Positions 44,168 to 60,402 of a stretch of DNA of 64,000 nucleotides are shown piece by piece. The DNA is taken from positions 1 through 64,000 of the forward strand of contig JAPOVT010000023.1 of the NCBI GenBank assembly GCA_026708015.1, written 5' to 3'. Source of the stretch: a bacterium (GTDB taxonomy: Bacteria > Actinomycetota > Acidimicrobiia > Acidimicrobiales > Bin134). The notes under the pieces were generated by a model. It had not been told where the DNA came from, did no database searches, and saw only the letters and a program-made list of their open reading frames with translations. The position numbers and the translations under genes were made by a program. The first letter of the stretch is position 1. Every line of letters begins with the position of its first letter.

Positions 44168-45633
44168 CCGTGTATTTGGTGGGTGCGGGGCCGGGAGATC
44201 CCGACCTTTTGACCCTGAGGGGGGCTGAGGTTCTGGCTGGTGCCGATGTGGTGGTGTACGACCGGCTGTCGGTGGCCACACTGCTCGATTTGGCCCCGGC
44301 GGACGCCGAGCGCATCTCGGTGGGCAAACAGCCCGGCGGGCCTCGCACCTCCCAAGACGACATCAATGCCTTGCTGGTGGAGCGGGGCCGGGCCGGACAG
44401 GAGGTGGTAAGGCTCAAGGGCGGCGATCCGTTCGTGTTCGCCCGGGGCGGTGAGGAGGCCGCCGCGCTGGCCGCCGCCGGCGTGGCTTTCGAGGTCGTCC
44501 CCGGCATCACCTCGGCGGTGGCGGTTCCCGCCTATGCCGGAATTCCGGTGACCATGAGGTATTCCTCCACTTCGTTCACGGTGGTAACCGGCCATGAGGA
44601 CCCGGCCAAGGGCGAGGGGTCGGTCAACTGGGAGGCGGTTGCCGCGCTGGGAGGCACGCTGGTGGTGCTCATGGGTGCGGCCCGGTGCCGCCCCATCTGC
44701 GAGCGGCTGATGGCGGCGGGCATGGACCCCGACACCCCGGCGGCCGCGGTGCAATGGGGCACCCGGCCCAACCAGTACACGCTGCGGGCCACCCTGGCCA
44801 CCCTGGCCGACTTCGATCCTCAACCGCCTGCCACCATTGTGATAGGCGAGGTGGCTGCTGCTGATCTGGCTTGGTTTGAGAACCGGCCCCTGTTCGGCCG
44901 CCGCATTGTGGTGACCCGGGCTCGGCCCCAAGCCGCCGCGCTGGCCGCCGACCTCCGCCGACGGGGGGCAGAGGCTGTCGAATTGCCCGCCATCGAGTTC
45001 GAGCCTCCAGAAGACCTCGATCGCCTGGTGAGGGCTGCCGACGAGGTTGGCATCTATGACTGGGTGGTGTTCACTTCGCCCACCGGAGTAGCCCAGTTCT
45101 TCGAGCACCTGCGGGACGCCCGCGTCCTAGGGGGAGTGCAGGTAGCGGCCATCGGCCCGGGTACCGCCGCCGCGCTGGCCGACCGCAACGTGGTCGCCGA
45201 CCTGGTGCCCGAGCAGTACGTGGCCGAGGCCCTGCTTGAGGCTCTGTCCGAAGAGGTCGGGCCCGATGGCCCCGGCCGGGTGCTCATCCCCCGGGCCGAA
45301 ACCGCCCGCGACGTGCTGCCCGACGGTCTGGCCGCCGCTGGCTGGGACGTGGATGTGGTTCCCGCCTATCGCACCGTCGCTCCGGCCCCCGCCCCCGATA
45401 CGGCGGCCGTGCTGGCCGAAGCCGAGGTCATCACCTTCACCTCGTCGTCCACCGTGACCAATTTCGTGGATGCCTACGGTATCGACGCGGTGCCCAAGGT
45501 GGTGGCCACCATTGGCCCCATCACCACCGCCACCGCCCGCAACCAGGGCCTAGAGGTGACCGTAGAGGCTACCGACCACACCGTGCCCGGCCTGGTCGCC
45601 GCCCTAGAGGACTTCTTCACCCGCACAAGTTGA
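44164..45633 (+). CDS. Fused uroporphyrinogen-III C-methyltransferase / uroporphyrinogen-III synthase (CobA-HemD)
   Basis: 489 residues. The first half is SUMT: VYLVGAGPGDPDLLTLRGAE, VRLKGGDPFVFARGGEEAA, PGITSAVAVPAYAGIPVT and GTLVVLMG. From about residue 245 a HemD domain follows: RRIVVTRARPQAAALAADLR, VVFTSPTGVAQFF, and the Tyr-containing VVPAYRT. It closes hydroxymethylbilane to uroporphyrinogen III and methylates part of it to precorrin-2 for siroheme. Such fusions are common in Actinobacteria. The next heme gene (hemB) is not in the window. Confidence 0.94.
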   Translation: MTVYLVGAGPGDPDLLTLRGAEVLAGADVVVYDRLSVATLLDLAPADAERISVGKQPGGPRTSQDDINALLVERGRAGQEVVRLKGGDPFVFARGGEEAAALAAAGVAFEVVPGITSAVAVPAYAGIPVTMRYSSTSFTVVTGHEDPAKGEGSVNWEAVAALGGTLVVLMGAARCRPICERLMAAGMDPDTPAAAVQWGTRPNQYTLRATLATLADFDPQPPATIVIGEVAAADLAWFENRPLFGRRIVVTRARPQAAALAADLRRRGAEAVELPAIEFEPPEDLDRLVRAADEVGIYDWVVFTSPTGVAQFFEHLRDARVLGGVQVAAIGPGTAAALADRNVVADLVPEQYVAEALLEALSEEVGPDGPGRVLIPRAETARDVLPDGLAAAGWDVDVVPAYRTVAPAPAPDTAAVLAEAEVITFTSSSTVTNFVDAYGIDAVPKVVATIGPITTATARNQGLEVTVEATDHTVPGLVAALEDFFTRTS

Positions 45634-45846: not shown

Positions 45847-47196
45847 TCAGGGGCCGAGGGTGAACAGGGGCACCACGCTCACGCCGTCGCGGCGCTGGTA
45901 GGCGTATCCGTCGGCGGCGGTGATCACCACCAGTGCCGAGGGCGTGCCCATCCGGCGCTCGTCCACCTTTTTGCTGGCCGCCAGCAGCGATCGGGCCGCG
46001 CTGTCGATCTGCTCGTCGCCGCCGAGCTTGGCCTCGACGGCGATCCAGCGGCCGTCTCGTGCATCGACGATTGCGTCGGCTTCGGCCCCGGCGGCATCGG
46101 TGAACGAGTAGACCTCGGCGTCGGCGGCCTGGGCGTAGATGCGCAACTCTCGGATCACCAACGACTCGAACAGGAATCCGAGCGTTTTGAGGTCGGCCAG
46201 CAGCCCGCGGGGGGTGGCTCGCAGGGCTGCGGCGGCCAGCGACGGGTCGCAGAAGTGGTGTTTGGGGCTCGTCAGCAGCGGCGCCCGGGAGCGCAGGTGG
46301 GTCGGCCACGCCCGAAGCGGCTCTGTGATATGCAGCCGTTCGAGGGCGTCAAGGTAGGAGCGGACGGTGTGGCGGCTGAGCGGCGCGTCGGCGCTGGCTT
46401 CGCCGGCCAGCTTGTTCAGGCTCGCCGCTGTGGCGACATTGCGTGCCAGCGACCTCAGCAGGGCCGACACCCGTATCGGGTCGCGTTCGACGCCGTCGAC
46501 TTGGCGGATGTCGGCGCGGGCGATGTCGTCGAGATAGCTGCGCAGGGCCCGAGCGGCATCCGCGGGCGGCAGCTGCGCGCCGAAAGCGGGCCAGCCGCCC
46601 CGGCACAGCGCGTCCACCGTTTCGGGCAGGTGCTGGCCGGTCGGGGGCCCCTCTGCGGGGACACCGTCGAGCAGGCCGGCCAGCGAGACTGCTTCTGAGG
46701 AGAGCCCCTGCTCAAACAGCGACATGGTGCGCAGCGCCAGCCGCTGCACTCTCAGCGCGCCCGAGTGCCTCGTGAGGTCGTCGGCCGGAACGGCTGACCC
46801 GGTGAGAATGAACTGGCCGGCGGCGCCCCGGGCATCACAGGCACCGCGCACCGCGGCCCACAGCCCCGGTGCCCGCTGCCACTCGTCGAGCAGCCGCGGA
46901 ACGGCGCCGTCGAGCAGCCTGCTGGGAGCGGCCTGGGCCAGCGTCCGCGCTGCCCGGTCTTGCTCGAGCAGCGCTTCGCTGCGAGCGAAGCGCTTGGCGA
47001 ACCACGTCTTGCCGCACCCTTTCGGGCCCTCCACCAGCAGCGCTCGGGCAGTTCGCAAGACAGCCGCGGCTTCAGCCTCGGCGGCGCGTTCTCGATAGCC
47101 CGCAGGGGTCAGCGTCGGCTGGTCCGCCGGTGCCGGCTGGCGGCCGTCATCGGTGCGGGGCCCAGTGTGTGCTTCTTCCGCGGCTGCCTCTTCCAT
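45847..47196 (-). CDS. AAA ATPase with DUF4143 domain (second copy)
   Basis: 449 residues. Walker A LVEGPKGCGKTWFAKRFA, Walker B-like RLLDEWQRAPGLWAAVR, arginine-rich ILTGSAVPADDLTRHSGALR, then the DUF4143 region with ILKTLGFLFESLVIRE-like core (LLADLKTLGFLFESLVIREL) and a terminal PD-(D/E)xK-like EADAIVDARDGRWIAVEAKL. Belongs to a different subgroup from the gene at 27448 but the same as the pseudogene at 47357. Function unknown. A 39-base palindrome precedes it. Confidence 0.88.
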   Translation of the reverse strand: MEEAAAEEAHTGPRTDDGRQPAPADQPTLTPAGYRERAAEAEAAAVLRTARALLVEGPKGCGKTWFAKRFARSEALLEQDRAARTLAQAAPSRLLDGAVPRLLDEWQRAPGLWAAVRGACDARGAAGQFILTGSAVPADDLTRHSGALRVQRLALRTMSLFEQGLSSEAVSLAGLLDGVPAEGPPTGQHLPETVDALCRGGWPAFGAQLPPADAARALRSYLDDIARADIRQVDGVERDPIRVSALLRSLARNVATAASLNKLAGEASADAPLSRHTVRSYLDALERLHITEPLRAWPTHLRSRAPLLTSPKHHFCDPSLAAAALRATPRGLLADLKTLGFLFESLVIRELRIYAQAADAEVYSFTDAAGAEADAIVDARDGRWIAVEAKLGGDEQIDSAARSLLAASKKVDERRMGTPSALVVITAADGYAYQRRDGVSVVPLFTLGP

Positions 47197-47205
47197 GCCA
47201 TCAAT

Positions 47206-47244
47206 CTACCAAATCTGGTAATACCGATATACCGAATTTGGTAG
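47206..47244. promoter_or_regulatory. Imperfect 39-bp palindrome upstream of second DUF4143 gene
   Basis: CTACCAAAT at one end and ATTTGGTAG at the other are perfect inverses, with a largely symmetric interior (GGTA/TACC units). It begins nine bases upstream of the ATG (47196) and is AT-rich against the GC-rich surroundings. Operator candidate. Confidence 0.45.
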
Positions 47245-47356
47245 AGCGAGCCCGCCGACACCCTCCTCACCAGAGACGACCAGCGCCGCTGAGGTGTTGT
47301 CGACTCTTCGCGACGGGTCGGTCCCGCGGGCGCTTTTTCCAGGTTCAGCGGCTGGG

Positions 47357-48278
47357 CTAGGGGCCTAGGGATGTGATGGGGGCCACGCATACTCCGTCGG
47401 GGCGTTCATAGGCGTACCCTCCGGCGGTGATGACCATGAGTTTGGCGGGGTTGCCCGTCCTGTCTTGGTCTAGCTTGTCGCACAGGCGCCGCAACGCTCG
47501 GGCACCCTTTTCGATTGCGGCAGCGCCGCCGAGCTTGACCTCGGCGGCGATCCATCTCCCGTCGGGATGGGTGACGATCAGATCGACCTCAAGGCTGTCG
47601 CTGTCTCGATAGTGCGACACTGAGCAGCGGTTGGCCTGGGCGTACACGAGGAGATCGCGCGTCACCATCGACTCGAACAGTCGGCCCGCGAATGCCAAAT
47701 CCCGCAGCAATCCGCTGACTTCAACCTCTTGGGCTGCTGCAACAAGCGATGGATCGGCCAGATGGATCTTCGGACTCCGGCGCGCCTGGGTCCGAGAAGC
47801 GATGTGGGGGCGCCAGGCTGGCACCTCCTCCAACACGAACAGCCGTGACAACGCCTCCAGTCTCGTGCAGGCTCATCGGACGCATCCTGACCCGCATGAT
47901 CCTGCCCGCCCCCGAATGCCGGGTGATGTCGTCGGGGGGGTCGGCAGAGCCCGTCAGGATGAACTGGCCCCTCGCGCCCCGACGGTCGCAAGCCCGCCGC
48001 ATCGGATTCCACACCTCCGGGGCAAGCTGCCATTCATCCAGCAGCCTGGGTGCCTCCCCGTCGAGAATCGACGCCGGATCCATGCCCGCTTCCAACGCGG
48101 CGCTCGCCCTGTCGTCCAGGTAGGCAGCGCTCTTGGCAAACTGGCGCCCTGTCCACGTCTTGCCGCAAGCACGAGGACCCTCGATCAACACTGCGGGCAT
48201 TGTGCCCAGCGCCCGTTGCATCTCCTCGTCGACAACGCGCGGCAAGTACTCATCGGGTGCGATGCCCTCGGTTGCCAT
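47357..48278 (-). pseudogene. DUF4143 ATPase pseudogene with internal deletion and frameshift
   Basis: The N-terminal ATPase half reads in one frame from ATG 48278: PAVLIEGPRACGKTWTGRQF and QFILTGSADPPDDITRHSGA, ending at MSLHETG near 47860. The C-terminal half is in another frame: EALSRLFVLEEVPAWRPHI, RLFESMVTRDLLVYAQ and WIAAEVKLGGAA to the stop at 47357. Compared with the intact paralogue at 45847, about 140 residues between MSLFEQG and LDALERL are missing, and the join shifts frame. Without the missing helices the protein should be dead. Confidence 0.85.
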
Positions 48279-48299
48279 GAAACCCCCAATCAAGTTACA

Positions 48300-51671: not shown

Positions 51672-51832
51672 GCCCAGAGGGCTGGGGCAAGGCGCAAGAG
51701 CCAGGTGCTGTCACACCCCAGCCCTATCAGAACGTGGGGATTGATCGTTCAAAAAGTCGGAGGAATGAGGCATTGGCGACAGACGTTCGGCTTGCCCTAG
51801 CCCAGCAACTTGTCGGGCAGCAAGGGGGCTTA
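51672..51832 (+). repeat. 161-bp direct repeat, copy A
   Basis: Matches 54297-54457 over 161 bases with a single difference (caccccagccc here, caccccaaccc there). It begins seven bases after the end of the IS30 relic. It contains no complete gene; in copy B the minus strand carries the promoter and start codon of the zinc-ribbon gene. See copy B. Confidence 0.93.
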
Positions 51833-51962
51833 CCCGACAACGACATCGCAGCCTCCGTCGGCTCCCGAGGCGACGGCTGTGTCATCGGCGATAGCCTCCA
51901 AAATCAAGGCCAGCAACCCTCCCACATGCTGTTTGAAAAAACCGGCAAACCGTCGCGCGGAG

Positions 51963-51985
51963 TCAGACGCAACACATGCGTCTGA
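51963..51985. other. Hairpin with 8-bp stem
   Basis: TCAGACGC (51963-51970) pairs with GCGTCTGA (51978-51985), loop AACACAT, followed by TTTC on the plus strand. It could be a weak terminator or a structure associated with the element edge. No gene is visible in the ~280 bases between copy A and 52110. Confidence 0.35.
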
Positions 51986-52109
51986 TTTCGCTGTCGGTCC
52001 CAGGACGCATATATTGCACCCAGCTCCGACGGAGGGCAGCGATTCGTGTAGCAGCGAAGGTCGTTCAAATTATGAACAATGTGTCGCTGCCATGCCTACA
52101 CTCTTGTGC

Positions 52110-52316
52110 ATGAAGACCGCGCACACCCCCCAACTTCAGGAAGCGGCGAGTTCTGTTGAGGACGGCGTGTACTGCCCCACCCCTGAGCAGATCCAAGCAG
52201 CCGAAGAGCGACTGCTGGAGAAGTGTGGTTTCTCCAGGGAAGAGTTGGAAGAGCAGGCAAGGCAGGGCAAATTCAAGACGGAGTCAGCGAAGCGCGCTTG
52301 GTTCTGCCTCCCCTGA
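52110..52316 (+). CDS. Small protein of unknown function, 68 aa
   Basis: MKTAHTPQLQEAASSVEDGV opens the protein; then an acidic helical segment (AAEERLLEKCGFSREELEEQ) and a basic tail ending in KRAWFCLP. Codon use is less GC-biased than neighbouring chromosomal genes. An ATG at 52092 is in the same frame and could also start. Lies between copy A and the AbiEii-like gene, on the opposite strand. No domain recognised; looks antitoxin- or regulator-sized. Confidence 0.5.
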   Translation: MKTAHTPQLQEAASSVEDGVYCPTPEQIQAAEERLLEKCGFSREELEEQARQGKFKTESAKRAWFCLP

Positions 52317-52317
52317 C

Positions 52318-52410
52318 ATGACCCCATCGCTTTCCAAGCAGGCGAAGCAATTCGCCGACGACTTGTCGCGTCTTCTCAACAACTCTGCCATCTGCTCTTG
52401 CGTCATTTGA
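52318..52410 (+). CDS. Very small ORF, 30 aa
   Basis: ATG 52318 lies two bases after the stop of the 68-aa gene: MTPSLSKQAKQFADDLSRLL, then NNSAICSCVI. Helical, with two cysteines at the end. Close spacing hints at co-translation. It might be the start of a longer gene lost at its 3' side. Weak. Confidence 0.3.
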   Translation: MTPSLSKQAKQFADDLSRLLNNSAICSCVI

Positions 52411-52469
52411 GCTTGCTGCCGTGGGGCGAAGACTCTTGCCAGAGTGCTCTCCGCTGAACTTCGACAGAT

Positions 52470-53357
52470 TCAGTATCTGTGGTTGTCGTCGGAGTGAGGG
52501 GGCCTCTTGCACTGCTTCTTGGTCCGTTTGCCAATGTGCTGGCAACGTCCTGTGTTCCGCTTGGCGGCAGTGCCTTCGGAAGTGGGGCTGGACCCTGCGA
52601 TTAGTTCGTCGAAGTCTGGGGTGAGCCCAGCCTGGCCTTTTCTGTCGGGCGGTTCGGGACGGTTCTCGCCGACTTGAGCGCGGCGCATTTGGTGCAGGCG
52701 TTGTTCTAGATCGGGCGCGCGGCTCGCGAGGTATCGGAGCACGTCGTCTTTCCGGTCTTCGAATATCGGGTCGATGTCGAGCTCTCCGGGTGTCTCGAGG
52801 AGTTGGACGATTCGGGCGGCGTCATTGGAAGCCGGCGTGATCCCGTAGCGCCGCATGTGGAAGCGGAGCCCGTCTTCGAGGGTGTAGGGGCCTGCCATAT
52901 CCATCGCCATCAGGTCGATGTAGTCACGCAGCTTCGGCCGATACATGATGACATCGAGCTTGGAGGCGAGCAGGTCCGGGAGGGACGCGACCGGGAGGCC
53001 GTCAATTCCGAAGGGTTGTTTGAGGGTCTTCACGTGGCCGGGGGTGGCTCCCCTGTGCGGGGTGCGGAACACCTGGATCAGGACTCCCTTGACCCTGGCG
53101 TGCATCTGATCGGGGCCACTGGCGTCCACTTCGATATCGCCGGTGCTGTCTCTGAGTCTCCGGGCGAGGCGGTCCCCGGAGAAACCCTTGTGGGCCATGT
53201 AGTCGAGGTCGTAGGAGATGCGATGGCGCATGTGTATGGCGAGTGCGGTGCCGCCCATCAGGCACCCGTCGATGCGCTTCGTGGCCTTTTGCAGGATGGG
53301 CCACACTTCGCGCGTTTCTGGCGAGAGGATGTCGCTCCAGGCGTCGATCTCAGCCAT
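52470..53357 (-). CDS. AbiEii-like nucleotidyltransferase (candidate toxin)
   Basis: 295 residues from ATG 53357 (TTG 53372 is an alternative). The polymerase-beta-like signature is CLMGGTALAIHMRHRISYDL followed by DYMA, the AbiEii/AbiGii type GG-T...RxSxDlD. The middle region (FGIDGLPVASLPDLLASKLD, KLRDYIDLMAM) also fits that family. Members transfer nucleotides to tRNA or other targets and act as toxins in abortive-infection systems. The C-terminal tail has a Cys/His-rich segment (RCQHIGKRTKKQCKRPPHSD), uncommon in this family. It overlaps the zinc-ribbon gene by eight bases. Confidence 0.8.
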   Translation of the reverse strand: MAEIDAWSDILSPETREVWPILQKATKRIDGCLMGGTALAIHMRHRISYDLDYMAHKGFSGDRLARRLRDSTGDIEVDASGPDQMHARVKGVLIQVFRTPHRGATPGHVKTLKQPFGIDGLPVASLPDLLASKLDVIMYRPKLRDYIDLMAMDMAGPYTLEDGLRFHMRRYGITPASNDAARIVQLLETPGELDIDPIFEDRKDDVLRYLASRAPDLEQRLHQMRRAQVGENRPEPPDRKGQAGLTPDFDELIAGSSPTSEGTAAKRNTGRCQHIGKRTKKQCKRPPHSDDNHRY

Positions 53358-54339
53358 GGGCGCGTTGGGCAAGGGCCTTGTCGATGCGAGCAGCTATTTC
53401 CCCCGTGTCGTAGCCGCGCATCGTCCGGCACTTTCGCAGCGCCTCTTCCGGCAAGCACCTCAGTGCCCATGTCTGGGCTACGGGGTCTGGGCCGTCGAGG
53501 ATGGTGGTGGCCACGAAAAAGGCGTCTTCGGGAAGCCTGAGGTCTTTGGCACTCGACCCGTTCCAGAACAAGCTCCAGAATTCGGGCGGTATTCGATCGG
53601 GACAAGTGCGGTCCACCTGCTCTGGTCGGGGGGGCAGGTATGCCATAGCGGTAATGCACTCCTCGTTGAGGTCGAGCGACCACAGCGGCAACGTTTGCGA
53701 CCCATACCCCCACGGCACGCTGGATTCCTCGCATCGGGCGTAGCCCAGTTCGGCAAGCGACTTCAAGCACCGTCGTGCGTGGTCGTCGGACAGGCCGGCT
53801 TCGCTGGCAACCTGGTCAAGGGCGGTGCCCCTGATTCTGTTCCGCAGCACCGCCATTACGGCGCGCTGCCCCCTGCTCAGGTCGGCAACCGGATTGTTGC
53901 CGGGGTCGAATGACGCGGGAAGCCGGTTCCGCAGCGCTTGTGCAGGATCGTGATGCTGGTGCAAGAGCGCCACCAAGCGGCTCTCCCCCGGCGGTTTCCC
54001 TGTCACTTCCAAAGCGGCAGCGATACGACGAGCAGCAGGAGCGGATATCTCCAACTCGCGAACCAGCGCAGCAGGGCGAATGTCAGCACACTGTGCAGCC
54101 GCTACCCACTTGGAGACTCCGACCTTGGAGCCGTGCATGGCCGTGTGGGTCGTGACGGTGAAATCCCCCCGGCACACTCGGCATCGCCACTGCTTCACGG
54201 GCCGCTCAGCTCGAATCGCCGGCTCGCCGGCCCCGCACTTTGGACATTCCGCGCCATTGGGCCACCTGAGCCTCTCCAGGTATGTCTCTGTAGAGAGCCC
54301 AGAGGGCTGGGGCAAGGCGCAAGAGCCAGGTGCTGTCAC
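53350..54339 (-). CDS. IS1595-type zinc-ribbon protein fused to winged-helix and unknown C-terminal domain (candidate AbiEii partner)
   Basis: 329 residues from GTG 54339, eight bases overlapping the nucleotidyltransferase. Residues 15-85 (LSTETYLERLRWPNGAECPK, CG, CRVCRGDFTVTTHTAMHGSK) copy the N-terminal zinc ribbon of IS1595/ISXO2 transposases, and residues 85-120 the adjoining helix region. The catalytic ISXO2 domain is absent. Instead residues ~150-225 look like a winged helix (SRGQRAVMAVLRNRIRGTAL, LKSLAELGYARCE) and the C-terminal 100 residues have no obvious family. It fills the place of the antitoxin in an AbiE-like operon. The start lies inside copy B of the 161-bp repeat. Confidence 0.75.
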   Translation of the reverse strand: MTAPGSCALPQPSGLSTETYLERLRWPNGAECPKCGAGEPAIRAERPVKQWRCRVCRGDFTVTTHTAMHGSKVGVSKWVAAAQCADIRPAALVRELEISAPAARRIAAALEVTGKPPGESRLVALLHQHHDPAQALRNRLPASFDPGNNPVADLSRGQRAVMAVLRNRIRGTALDQVASEAGLSDDHARRCLKSLAELGYARCEESSVPWGYGSQTLPLWSLDLNEECITAMAYLPPRPEQVDRTCPDRIPPEFWSLFWNGSSAKDLRLPEDAFFVATTILDGPDPVAQTWALRCLPEEALRKCRTMRGYDTGEIAARIDKALAQRAHG

Positions 54340-54457
54340 ACCCCAACCCTATCAGAACGTGGGGATTGATCGTTCAAAAAGTCGGAGGAATGAGGCATTG
54401 GCGACAGACGTTCGGCTTGCCCTAGCCCAGCAACTTGTCGGGCAGCAAGGGGGCTTA
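54297..54457 (+). repeat. 161-bp direct repeat, copy B
   Basis: Near-identical (160 of 161) to 51672-51832, the two copies being 2625 bases apart and in the same orientation. Copy B covers the GTG start and predicted promoter of the zinc-ribbon gene. Together the copies bracket the AbiEii/zinc-ribbon pair and the two small plus-strand ORFs, and recombination between them would remove that block. Confidence 0.93.
54349..54377 (-). promoter_or_regulatory. Predicted promoter inside repeat copy B, driving the zinc-ribbon gene
   Basis: On the minus strand TTGAAC (54377-54372), 17-base spacer, TGATAG (54354-54349). The GTG start at 54339 is about ten bases downstream, consistent with leaderless translation. 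The same sequence is in copy A, facing into the IS30 relic. Confidence 0.4.
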
Positions 54458-54506
54458 GCCCCGCGTGGGCGGGTGAGGTTCCCCGCTTCGACGCGAAGAG
54501 CCCCAA

Positions 54507-54536
54507 AACGGTGTTGCCAAGATTGGCAACACCGTT
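54507..54536. promoter_or_regulatory. Perfect 14-bp inverted repeat: operator of the HTH-kinase-TPR operon
   Basis: AACGGTGTTGCCAA and its inverse are separated by GA. A promoter fits across it: TTGCCA (54514-54519) as -35, an 18-base spacer and TACGGT (54538-54543) as -10, giving a transcription start at or near ATG 54550 (leaderless). The operator covers the -35 and the spacer, a standard layout for repression. The HTH protein encoded immediately downstream is the obvious binder. Confidence 0.65.
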
Positions 54537-54549
54537 GTACGGTAGAGGC

Positions 54550-54843
54550 ATGGCAGGCAGACGAATAGCCGACATGCTTCGCAATGCCAGACAGGCCAAA
54601 GGCCAGTCTTTGAGGAACGCTGCGAAGGACCTCGGCGTGGACGCGTCGTACCTTTCCCGAGTGGAAACAGGGGAGCGGCAACCATCAGCCGAACTGCGCG
54701 ATCGTGCGGTAAGCCACTATGCGCTCGACGGCGAACACGTTGCGTTGGCCGCTGGCGACATCCCACCCGACATTGCGGAAATCCTCCTGCAACACCCCGA
54801 GCTTCTCGTTGAAATCCGAGCCAGATATGGCCAGCTTCGCTAA
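54550..54843 (+). CDS. XRE-family helix-turn-helix regulator
   Basis: 97 residues from ATG 54550. RIADMLRNARQAKGQSLRNA, then KDLGVDASYLSRVETGERQP, the classic XRE/cro helix-turn-helix. The C-terminal part is short and acidic, without a peptidase or sensor domain. It lies 13 bases after a perfect inverted repeat. Its stop overlaps the kinase start by 17 bases, so the kinase is translationally coupled to its regulator. Confidence 0.88.
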   Translation: MAGRRIADMLRNARQAKGQSLRNAAKDLGVDASYLSRVETGERQPSAELRDRAVSHYALDGEHVALAAGDIPPDIAEILLQHPELLVEIRARYGQLR

Positions 54844-55960
54844 TGCCTGCATCGGCCAGACCCTCAGCGGGCGCTACCGGCTCGCAGCCCATATCGGCGA
54901 CGGTTACTTCTCCCATGTGTTCAAAGCCAGCGATCAACAGACCGCAACGCTGGCCGCTGTGAAGATGCTCGCTCCGAGCGCTACCAGTGACCCTGGCGCA
55001 GTGATGGAGTTTGACGAGGAGGGGATGCTCCTGGAGAAGTCAGAAAAGGTCCGCAATGTCGTCTCGCTGATCGAATCGGGACAGTCGGAATTGTTCATTG
55101 ACATTGGAGGCTCGCCTACGAGGATGCGTGTGCGCTTTCATGTGTTGGAGTTGGGTGACGGGTCGCTTGACGAACTTCTGCCGCATCGGCATGAGCTCAG
55201 CTGGCATGCCAAGATGCTGCTCTTCCGGGATGTCGTGTCAGGCGTCCATCAAATGCATGGCAAGCGGATCATGCATAGGGACATCAAGTCATCAAACGTG
55301 CTCTTGTTTGACACAAAGAAACCCGTCTTGTCCCTGATGTCCGGCTCAGGTGGACTGCCGGTATCCAACCTGCTCTTGTCCGACTCGAGAAAGCCCGTCG
55401 CCACAGCGAAAATCTCCGATCTGGGACGCAGCCGCAGCCTGGACCGAAGCCCTCGGTTTTCTCCGTCCGCGTACGCGTCAGGGCGAGGCGACCACAGTTA
55501 CGCGCCGCCAGAGTTCCTCTGGAACCTGGCCGACGGGAACGACCTAACAGCTCTTAGGCGGGCCGACATCTACCTTCTCGGCTCGGTCCTGTACGAAATC
55601 GCCACCGGTCTGGGAATTACAGCGGTGACGTTGCCGGATTGGCAATTCCACCTCGATCACACAGCAGCTATGGAACGAGAAGATCGAGAAGCCAGTTTCT
55701 GCGCTGCGGCACGTTACATGAGGGAAAGATACGAGTCGGCTTTGGGGGAGCTGGAGGATGAGGTGCCTCCGCAAATACGACAACACGTTGTGGACCTGGT
55801 ACGCCAGATGTGCAGCCCCGTCCCCGCCTTTCGGGAGCGCCGCCGTCGAGCTGAGCAGAACAGCCCTTTGTGGGGCCTGCAATGGGTGTTTCGCCGCGTG
55901 GACATCATCATCAAGACCCTTGACCGAACAGCGTATGAAAGGAGGAGAGTGAACATATGA
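54827..55960 (+). CDS. Ser/Thr protein kinase
   Basis: 377 residues. G-loop HIGDGYFSHVFKA, AAVKML (catalytic Lys), catalytic loop IMHRDIKSSNVLL (HRD...N), DLG in place of DFG in the magnesium loop (KISDLGRSRSL), and APPEFL (APE-like). The kinase domain covers almost the whole protein; no transmembrane helix, PASTA or GAF region is present, so it should be soluble. An insertion before the magnesium loop (LSLMSGSGGLPVSNLLLSDS) is unusual. Overlaps both neighbours. Substrates unknown; the TPR protein that follows is the likeliest partner. Confidence 0.88.
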   Translation: MASFANACIGQTLSGRYRLAAHIGDGYFSHVFKASDQQTATLAAVKMLAPSATSDPGAVMEFDEEGMLLEKSEKVRNVVSLIESGQSELFIDIGGSPTRMRVRFHVLELGDGSLDELLPHRHELSWHAKMLLFRDVVSGVHQMHGKRIMHRDIKSSNVLLFDTKKPVLSLMSGSGGLPVSNLLLSDSRKPVATAKISDLGRSRSLDRSPRFSPSAYASGRGDHSYAPPEFLWNLADGNDLTALRRADIYLLGSVLYEIATGLGITAVTLPDWQFHLDHTAAMEREDREASFCAAARYMRERYESALGELEDEVPPQIRQHVVDLVRQMCSPVPAFRERRRRAEQNSPLWGLQWVFRRVDIIIKTLDRTAYERRRVNI

Positions 55961-57663
55961 CCATGACCATCCAAGAAGACAGAATCCTCGCCCCGCCAAA
56001 CCCCGCGGCTGCCCGCATCGTCGTGCCGCTAAGCGAGGACCAGCAATTGCAGTCCCCAGAAATAGCACTCCTGCCCAACCCTTATTCCGGCCAAATCGAC
56101 GGTGACCTCTTGCAGGCTCGTGCCCTAGCAGACAAGTTTCCAGGTTCGCCTACTGCGCTGGCCAGGCTCGCGGTCAGTGAGGTGAGCTTCGGAAACCGTG
56201 TTAGCGCATGGGAGGCGGCAAAGCAGGTATTGGAGAATGAGACCATCGACGCCCCAGCACTTATAGCTGCGTCGCAGGTTGCCGCGGGTTTAGGAGAGGT
56301 TGCCCTTGCGGACCAAGGACTCCGAAAGGTGTTGGAAGCACCCTCTGTGGGGAACGGAGCCAAACGCTCTGCGGCCGTGCTTGCGGCTAGGTTCGCAGTG
56401 CATCAAGGGTGGTTGGACAGAGCGCTGGAGCTTCTTGAAGACAATGAGAGTGAGACGGGGGCGGCGCTCAAAGGGGCGGTGCTGGCGCAAGTGGGCCGGT
56501 GCCATGACGCCATTCGCGAATTGCGCGCAGCTCTGAGGAGTGTTCCCGACTCCCCCTCAACCCTGTGCAACCTCGGCTACGCATACGCGATGGCAGGCTC
56601 CGCCCGGAAGGCCATCCGGGCTACGTCCGCCGCTGCTGCTCTCGCACCGGCAGACCGCACAGCGGGCCTCAATCTGGCTGCCTTCCTGCTCTCTCAGGGC
56701 GAAACCAGCGAGGCGGTATCGGCCATTGACCGCCTCGCTGCCCATCACCCCGGCGACATCCAACTGGTGCTTGCCGCAGCAGCGGCCCTGCACATCTCAG
56801 GAGATGCCAAAGGCGCGTTGAAGCGCCTGCGACGAGCGGACACGTCAAGGGATATTCAAGAGGCTGCACCCGCCCAGAAGGAGGAACTCCGGCTCTACAT
56901 CGACCTGTTGACTCCTCCGGCAAAGCCCCGCAAGGAGGTGTTTGATCGCGCGTTGGAGGCACTGGAACGGTGTGACTACCGAAGCGAGATGATCGCCCGC
57001 TTGCTCGCTAATACTGCGAAGACAACGGCTGACCTTCCAGCGCTGGAATCCGCTTACAGCGAACTCATCGAGCGCTACGACCGCCCGGCGCTGCTGGCCG
57101 TCGAGCAAGAAGTCGCATTTCTGCGTTTCGAGTTCGACCGCAGTCTGAAAGCCGCTGTCGAATGGGTTCGAGAAGAACCGTTCTCCGCCGCTGCTCACAT
57201 CGCTGCCACCTATCTGCTGTGCATGTACAAGGGGGATTACCAAGAAGCAGCTCGCATCGGGCTGGCCGGAATCAGGCGTGGCATCGGCGACGACGTGCTC
57301 CGCAATAATGTCGCTTTCGCCCTCGCAATGGGTGGCGATCCCGATGGGGCGGAACGAGTGCTTCCCGACCTGTCGGAATGTGATCTCGCCTTGACCACCG
57401 CAGGACTCATCAAAGCCGTGAGAGGAGACCTCGAAGAGGGCATCGCCCTGTACGAGGAGGGCGAAAGAAGGTTCCGCGAAGAGGGAGATCTCGACCTTGC
57501 GGGCATCATTGCAATAGGCAAGGCATTTGCAATTCTCGCAACCGGCCACAAAATCCCCGAAGGCTATCTGAGCGGTTTGGCCAGCAAGAAAAGCACCGAC
57601 CCCAGATTCGCCCTTGTCCACATCGCCATCACGCGAGAGGCAGACGCCCAAGAGCCTCAATAG
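55957..57663 (+). CDS. TPR-repeat protein of a kinase operon
   Basis: 568 residues, start overlapping the kinase stop (ATGA). It is made almost entirely of helical hairpins like TPR units, for example SPSTLCNLGYAYAMAGSARK, and later ALAAFLLSQGETSEAV-type turns. No catalytic motif is seen. The N-terminal ~45 residues (PPNPAAARIVVPLSEDQQLQ) are non-helical. Likely a scaffold or sensor that recruits targets to the kinase. Confidence 0.82.
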   Translation: MTMTIQEDRILAPPNPAAARIVVPLSEDQQLQSPEIALLPNPYSGQIDGDLLQARALADKFPGSPTALARLAVSEVSFGNRVSAWEAAKQVLENETIDAPALIAASQVAAGLGEVALADQGLRKVLEAPSVGNGAKRSAAVLAARFAVHQGWLDRALELLEDNESETGAALKGAVLAQVGRCHDAIRELRAALRSVPDSPSTLCNLGYAYAMAGSARKAIRATSAAAALAPADRTAGLNLAAFLLSQGETSEAVSAIDRLAAHHPGDIQLVLAAAAALHISGDAKGALKRLRRADTSRDIQEAAPAQKEELRLYIDLLTPPAKPRKEVFDRALEALERCDYRSEMIARLLANTAKTTADLPALESAYSELIERYDRPALLAVEQEVAFLRFEFDRSLKAAVEWVREEPFSAAAHIAATYLLCMYKGDYQEAARIGLAGIRRGIGDDVLRNNVAFALAMGGDPDGAERVLPDLSECDLALTTAGLIKAVRGDLEEGIALYEEGERRFREEGDLDLAGIIAIGKAFAILATGHKIPEGYLSGLASKKSTDPRFALVHIAITREADAQEPQ

Positions 57664-57877
57664 CAAAACACCCTGGTGAGCTTTCCCCCCTGAGCTTCCC
57701 CCTAATCGTGGATTGTTGGTTCTGGGATAGGGTTGACGGGGTGGAAGCCCGGCCAGCCAAGATCAAGCGGGATGTGCCTCGGCGCATTGGTATCGTCCCT
57801 CCCTTTAATTGGGGGCGGCGCCAGGACGCGGCTTGCTCCGTTCGGAAGACGACCAGGTGGCCATTTCGATTTTGAGG

Positions 57878-59469: not shown

Positions 59470-59727
59470 ATGCCCCGCTGGAGATGGGCGAACCTGCGCG
59501 TCCTCGATGAGTGGGCAGAGGGTCGAAGCGACCAGGAACGGACAGCCGTCTACCGGGCGATGATGGCGGCTATGGAGTCCGACACGCTGCCGGGAAGGCC
59601 GGTGCTGACCCCACCTGGACGATTGCGGCGAGTGATCGAGACAGAAGCCGCTACCATCAAATTCGCCCCGCCAGAGGACATGTGGAACGCTGCCCACGAC
59701 TGCCTATTCCTACTGGAGATTGGTTAG
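59470..59727 (+). CDS. Toxin-like small protein (RelE/ParE-type size and context)
   Basis: 85 residues: RWRWANLRVLDEWAEGRSDQ, then ERTAVYRAMMAAMESD and PPGRLRRVIETEAATIKFAP. Basic with a hydrophobic end, like small RNase toxins, but without recognisable catalytic residues. Ends four bases inside the convergent IS1595 relic. Confidence 0.45.
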   Translation: MPRWRWANLRVLDEWAEGRSDQERTAVYRAMMAAMESDTLPGRPVLTPPGRLRRVIETEAATIKFAPPEDMWNAAHDCLFLLEIG

Positions 59728-60402
59728 GCGGCTGGCATTTCGTGGCGTTGGCGGAAGTGCGGTCCCTGAGCGATCAACGCCTCGTAGGTGAGCCGCCTCC
59801 CGTCCATGCCCCTCACCAGCTCGCCCATCTGGTCGATGGTGTCCTTCGGACGCTCGTTGTGCCGATGCGAGAACTCAGCCACATAACGGTCCAAGTGCTC
59901 CGAGGAGAGCTGGTGGTACGTCCTGTGATATCCCCTTTTGAGCATCGACCAGAACGACTCCATGCCGTTCGCGTGGGCCATCCCATCGGCCCACTGGCCA
60001 ACGCTGTGGGCCACCGCCCGGTGCCGATACCCGCGGCGTGTGAGCGGCCTGTAGCCCGCCGCCTCGTCGGTCAACACCAGCGCCCCCTTCTCGGCGTGAT
60101 CGGCGACCATGCCGACCAGAGTCGGCGCTGACGTGTCAGCCACCACACGGGCCGCGATCTTGTTGGTGGCCCGGTCCTTCACCCCGGCCACGATGGCCTT
60201 GCCAAAGGGACCGCCAGCCGCCCTCATCCGCTTGTGGCGGTGCTTGTTCTTCTCCAAACCCCCGACATAGGTCTCATCGGCCTCCACCGGCCCGGAGAAC
60301 ACGAAGCCCCCATCGGCGGCCATCGCCTCCCGGAAACGGTGCAACAGGAACCAGGCCGCTTTCTGGCCGATCCCCAGAGCCTTCTACGACATCCAATTCA
60401 AG
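59724..60402 (-). mobile_element. IS1595-family (ISXO2-like) transposase relic, 5' truncated
   Basis: The C-terminal ISXO2-like DDE domain is intact: VEADETYVGGLEKNKHRH, ALVLTDEAAGYRPLTRRGY, and ANGMESFWSMLKRGYHRTYH with the catalytic Glu region. Reading further upstream gives LGIGQKAAWFLLHRFREAMA and then a TAG stop in frame near 60386, and no zinc ribbon. It ends at the VWA fragment. No inverted repeats found. A zinc ribbon of the same family is part of the gene at 53350. Confidence 0.8.

Follow-up and report, generated by a model that had tools for sequence, protein, structure and literature searches.

A mobile regulator-kinase-TPR cassette that probably represents a divergent, self-repressed subtype of PDC-M71

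Three overlapping genes on the plus strand of the window, that is the whole 64-kb stretch of DNA analysed here, raise the question of whether they constitute an undescribed system, as the initial annotation had proposed, or a variant of something already catalogued. The first gene (54550-54843, ATG start at 54550) encodes an XRE/HTH_31 regulator of 97 aa, the second (54827-55960, ATG start at 54827) a soluble Hanks-type Ser/Thr kinase of 377 aa and the third (55957-57663, ATG start at 55957) a TPR superhelix protein of 568 aa. The corresponding Pfam matches are HTH_31 (1.5e-12), Pkinase (4e-25) and TPR_14 (1.1e-7). The XRE and kinase genes overlap by 17 nt and the kinase and TPR genes by 4 nt; these overlaps, the gene coordinates and the position of an upstream palindrome are exactly those given in the initial annotation.

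From 54502 to 57673 (plus strand) the window shares 91% DNA identity (blastn) with a MAG of the same genus, G021 (record JAPPMA010000077). The match extends from 5 bp before the palindrome to 10 bp past the last stop codon, and the flanks are unrelated; hence the predicted operator and the three genes travel as one mobile cassette. Purifying selection acts on each of the three genes, with dN/dS values against G021 of 0.07 for the XRE gene, 0.21 for the kinase gene and 0.22 for the TPR gene. Among 21 other genomes of the genus the cassette is present in only two, G021 and, as a broken copy, G009 (locus L076), whose left cassette border is the same as in the window and in G021. The sample of the order yielded only G520 and G026, and no other window-type member stood out in the samples of the phylum and the class, so that this type of system is rare. 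In G520, which belongs to another family of the same order, the order HTH-kinase-TPR is conserved with 4-nt overlaps at both junctions, at an identity to the window of 38% for the kinase and 30% for the TPR protein.

This patchy presence disfavours the view that the operon belongs to the ordinary Ser/Thr kinase equipment of the genus, for housekeeping or stress regulation, which we regard as very improbable. Regulatory systems often contain Hanks kinases and TPR proteins, and 98 of 99 related genomes have generic kinases, but no housekeeping relative was found among the homologues, and in a tree the kinase falls with PDC-M71A, apart from generic kinases. Moreover, the core synteny of the genus, followed in several genomes, ends at position 45624, which places the cassette in an accessory region.

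The palindrome (54507-54536, with the 14+2+14 structure AACGGTGTTGCCAA-GA-TTGGCAACACCGTT and the core TGTTGCCA..TGGCAACA) is perfect and ends 13 nt before the XRE start codon. Among perfect inverted repeats of the window with a spacer of up to 12 nt none is longer; it was not matched in 100 shuffled sequences, and its core occurs a single time in the 3.5-Mb genome. A leaderless promoter is predicted at 54514-54543 (plus strand) from the sequence and from the same layout in three relatives: the -35 element TTGCCA (54514-54519) sits within the palindrome and is followed, after a spacer of 18 nt, by the -10 element TACGGT (54538-54543), with the XRE start codon 6 nt further on. G021 and G009 keep the palindrome core GTGTTGCCA...TGGCAACAC, while G520 carries TGTTGCCCAACTGGGCAACA ahead of its XRE gene; the core common to the window and G520 is TGTTGCC…GGCAACA, again over a leaderless promoter. 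In all four loci a -35-like TTGCCM is found in the left half-site, the -10 element (TACGGT, TATGGT or TACAGT) follows after 17-18 nt, and the start codon lies 6-7 nt beyond it. The XRE protein, whose identity to that of the window is 96% in G021, 92% in G009 and 51% in G520, is better conserved than the kinase and the TPR protein, and its site is kept as well. Given that gene order, an XRE protein of 51% identity and the palindrome core over a leaderless promoter are all retained in G520, it is very probable that the palindrome serves as the XRE operator, and the joint conservation of regulator and site is strong footprinting evidence for the predicted autorepression. The picture of a coupled, self-regulated and mobile three-gene module in defence-type surroundings, drawn in the initial annotation, is supported by these comparisons, order and predicted operator being kept in the distant G520.

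The claim of novelty fared differently, as both the kinase and the TPR protein match a candidate already catalogued in PADLOC, PDC-M71A/B. For the kinase, PDC-M71A is the best model (7.9e-37; next family 6e-27), and for the TPR protein PDC-M71B (5.1e-20) is the only PADLOC family match, its best stretch covering mainly residues 391-507; a profile comparison of the TPR protein with PDC-M71B gives an E-value of 2.2e-22 over 311 columns. This divergent TPR match may fall below a PADLOC coverage cut-off. The G520 kinase matches PDC-M71A (3.5e-26) and mad6 (1.4e-26) in a tie. In the kinase tree, window-type and canonical PDC-M71A kinases stand apart from 19 generic kinases with support of 100/99, a result to be taken with caution, since branches are long and the root was placed at the midpoint. 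The C-lobes give a clearer picture: that of the window-type kinase aligns with the canonical PDC-M71A C-lobe over its full length (134 columns, E 1.9e-17), and with generic kinases over 19 columns only. A canonical pair is present within the same order in G026, with model E-values of 1.6e-91 and 4e-106.

The window cassette thus shares with PDC-M71 a homologous kinase with a family-specific C-lobe, a homologous TPR protein in the same gene order, adjacent or overlapping genes, and mobile and defence settings. It differs in that its clade is distant (kinase identity of 23-25%, and model E-values of 8e-37 and 5e-20, where canonical members reach 1e-77 to 1e-110), in the catalytic loop, which is of the RD type (HRD) in the window clade and reads HQD or HND in canonical members, and in the addition of an XRE gene with a conserved palindrome, a predicted autorepressor not seen in canonical PDC-M71 loci. 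Taken together, the PADLOC matches, the tree and the C-lobe homology indicate a divergent PDC-M71 subtype with an added, conserved, predicted autorepressor; judged from sequence, the new part is the regulator with its palindrome, the kinase-TPR pair being already catalogued. PDC systems derive from guilt-by-embedding, mostly without experimental test (PMC12988326), and two others showed no activity when assayed in native hosts (PMC12409345); no published experimental test of any PDC-M71 member was found in the literature.

None of the eight intact kinases that were compared lacks the catalytic Lys, the alpha-C Glu, HxDxKxxN, DxG or APE; the beta-3 Lys is wrongly aligned by MAFFT between the two kinase clades but is invariant inside each of them. 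The DLG motif, described in the initial annotation as a modified magnesium loop, is indeed present, but it is no oddity, since DLG is the majority form among the kinases of the PDC-M71 family. Among relatives the kinase residues are kept in all but one decayed copy, that of G009, where two deletions take out the N-lobe and everything from the DLG motif on; the XRE gene of this locus is intact and the TPR frame is open but without its native start codon. This is a single case on a 4.8-kb metagenome contig, and neutral decay could also account for it; nonetheless, if the kinase carries the cost, it is the gene one would expect to see lost with the HTH and TPR frames still in place. Between the catalytic loop and DLG (window 55300-55420) the kinase has an insert of some 24-29 residues; it looks internally duplicated (NVLLFDTKKPV / NLLLSDSRKPV), and is also found in G021 and absent from G520. 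Structure prediction for the kinase gave no usable model (pLDDT 35).

For the TPR protein the predicted structure is an all-helical superhelix, confident from residue 44 onwards (pLDDT 77). No enzymatic domain was found in it, and a fold search with the model returned only generic TPR superhelices and scaffolds. The protein is plausibly a binding partner that acts as a sensor or an adaptor.

The canonical family extends well beyond the order. With the G026 proteins as queries, plasmids of Deinococcus, Arthrobacter and Rhizobium yielded further pairs, so that canonical pairs occur in Deinococcota, Pseudomonadota and Actinomycetota; the family came to light with the G026 kinase, and not the window kinase, as plasmid query. 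On a prophage contig of IMG/VR (L111, 170-8606) a PDC-M71 pair sits near the genes for portal and head-maturation protease, a neighbourhood which is a typical spot for phage-borne defence cargo. Searches with the window-type proteins were less productive: tblastn of the kinase against plasmids and phages gave at most generic or distant kinases, tblastn of the TPR protein against plasmids gave no family member, the XRE protein had no match on plasmids, and no close relatives were found in viral contigs with window-type profiles. Plasmid kinases of Sinorhizobium and Persicobacter, matched by the G520 kinase, were rejected as long kinases in T6SS or unrelated settings. PDC-M71, a catalogued candidate, is therefore seen here to span three phyla, plasmids and prophage with its catalytic residues kept.

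Defence genes recur as neighbours of these pairs, which is suggestive of a defence role. The window cassette lies beside an AbiEii gene, confirmed by Pfam as had been annotated, and a C5 DNA methyltransferase gene; of the restriction-modification pair named in the initial annotation the methyltransferase is confirmed, but Pfam gave no match for the neighbouring ORF of 256 aa, which presumably encodes the restriction enzyme. The G021 cassette has GmrSD-type HEC-05 and MNT/HEPN PDC-M05 as neighbours, and that of G520 Fic, a MazE-type antitoxin and PIN. Among canonical pairs, PDC-S02 is found in Arthrobacter, Pycsar-type genes in Deinococcus and TniQ/TnsB-like genes in Rhizobium.

On this basis, a self-repressed, horizontally moving kinase-TPR immunity cassette, that is a divergent autoregulated PDC-M71 subtype, is our favoured reading, with a probability of roughly 0.6. 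The XRE protein would bind the palindrome over the -35 element and the spacer of the leaderless promoter and keep its own operon nearly silent, while translational coupling of the three genes would keep the amounts of repressor, kinase and TPR protein in a fixed ratio. The TPR superhelix would most likely bind the kinase, as a sensor or adaptor that holds it off or directs it to its substrate. Upon infection the complex would be released or induced, and the kinase would phosphorylate a host or phage protein and block phage growth, probably at a cost to the cell. The immunity part of this reading has a precedent in KKP, in which a toxic Ser/Thr kinase gives phage defence (PMC11341870). A subtype with a dedicated predicted repressor and a palindrome conserved across families would make PDC-M71 directly testable: the palindrome offers a reporter, the relative with a gutted kinase hints at which gene is the costly one, and the obvious candidate for the sensor is the TPR partner. 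To our knowledge, kinase-based phage defences confirmed by experiment are still few.

The same features could also be read as those of a selfish toxin-antitoxin module, with a toxic kinase, a TPR antitoxin and an XRE autorepressor, maintained by addiction and with no dedicated anti-phage role. The compact cassette with sharp borders and differing flanks, the predicted self-repression, the carriage of the family on plasmids and in prophage and the loss of the kinase in G009 while its partner frames remain would all suit such a module; however, the TPR protein (510-613 aa) is far above the usual size of an antitoxin, and the recurrence of defence genes as neighbours speaks against it. We regard this possibility as rather unlikely, and the distinction is partly semantic because toxin-antitoxin and defence roles overlap.

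Another way of reading the coupling of repressor and kinase is that the kinase is a signalling device which, upon stress or DNA damage, lifts repression by phosphorylating the XRE repressor or a host factor, the TPR protein being the stress sensor. In CapK-CapS, a kinase phosphorylates an adjacent repressor and thereby switches on an immune operon (PMC13373217), and in G026 an XRE gene and a gene for a CapP-like M78 protease precede the PDC-M71 pair, so that inducible control appears to be a theme. Nevertheless, CapK-CapS pairs a GHKL kinase with a STAS-wHTH repressor, whereas the window encodes a Hanks kinase (Pkinase) and an XRE protein (HTH_31), and on these domains its identification as CapK-CapS is ruled out. 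Furthermore, the canonical plasmid and prophage pairs lack such an XRE partner, so the repressor cannot be the general substrate of the family. In addition, no further effector gene follows the operon on its strand over the next 100 bp or so. A signalling device of this kind likewise receives a minor share of our confidence. Slightly smaller is the chance that the three proteins form one signalling unit, in which the TPR protein would sense a phage or stress product and unleash the kinase, and the kinase would phosphorylate both the XRE protein, thereby opening the operon's own promoter, and an essential target; if true, the cassette would be an immune switch run by a Hanks kinase, with positive feedback built in, and a different device from CapK-CapS.

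Compared with other known systems, the favoured immunity cassette resembles CapH+CapP and CapK+CapS in having a repressor beside a candidate immune operon, and its XRE protein weakly resembles capH (2e-6); unlike CapH+CapP, its operon has no M78 (ImmA/IrrE) protease gene, the M78 matches of the window genome being open frames of 372-437 aa on other contigs. With KKP, which is found in Pf prophages, it shares a Ser/Thr kinase as likely toxic effector, a partner gene and a mobile setting, but KKP has two kinases and a phosphatase and no TPR partner. Stk2, PD-T4-6, mad6 of MADS, PglW and MkoA of Mokosh have the Hanks kinase core in common with the window kinase, but their matches are weaker and mostly limited to this core; those to PglW (6e-10) and Stk2 (1e-7) cover the kinase core only, with no full-length match.

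Several observations concern the surroundings of these loci. In G026 (L077, 5511-11379) a single strand carries, in succession, genes for an E1/ThiF-like protein, an XRE protein, the CapP-like M78 protease, PDC-M71A and PDC-M71B, possibly a CapH+CapP-controlled PDC-M71 beside a ubiquitin-like system. The region of the window from 45624 to the contig end appears to be accessory, which suggests a hotspot or a breakpoint. At 45847-48293 (minus strand) there are two adjacent, related ATPase-like genes, the second apparently split (47357-47851 and 47721-48293) and likely a decayed copy. A domain of an IS1595-type DDE transposase at 59724-60344 (minus strand) is probably an insertion-sequence remnant. 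The flanking repeat described in the initial annotation is present, but it measures 164 nt and not 161 bp, its two copies (51672-51835 and 54297-54460) being 99% identical. Between the two copies of this direct repeat (51672-54460) lie the AbiEii gene and the gene of a partner protein, which combines a zinc ribbon of the IS1595 type with an HTH of the IclR type; the bracketed segment may be a mobile type IV toxin-antitoxin unit in its own right.
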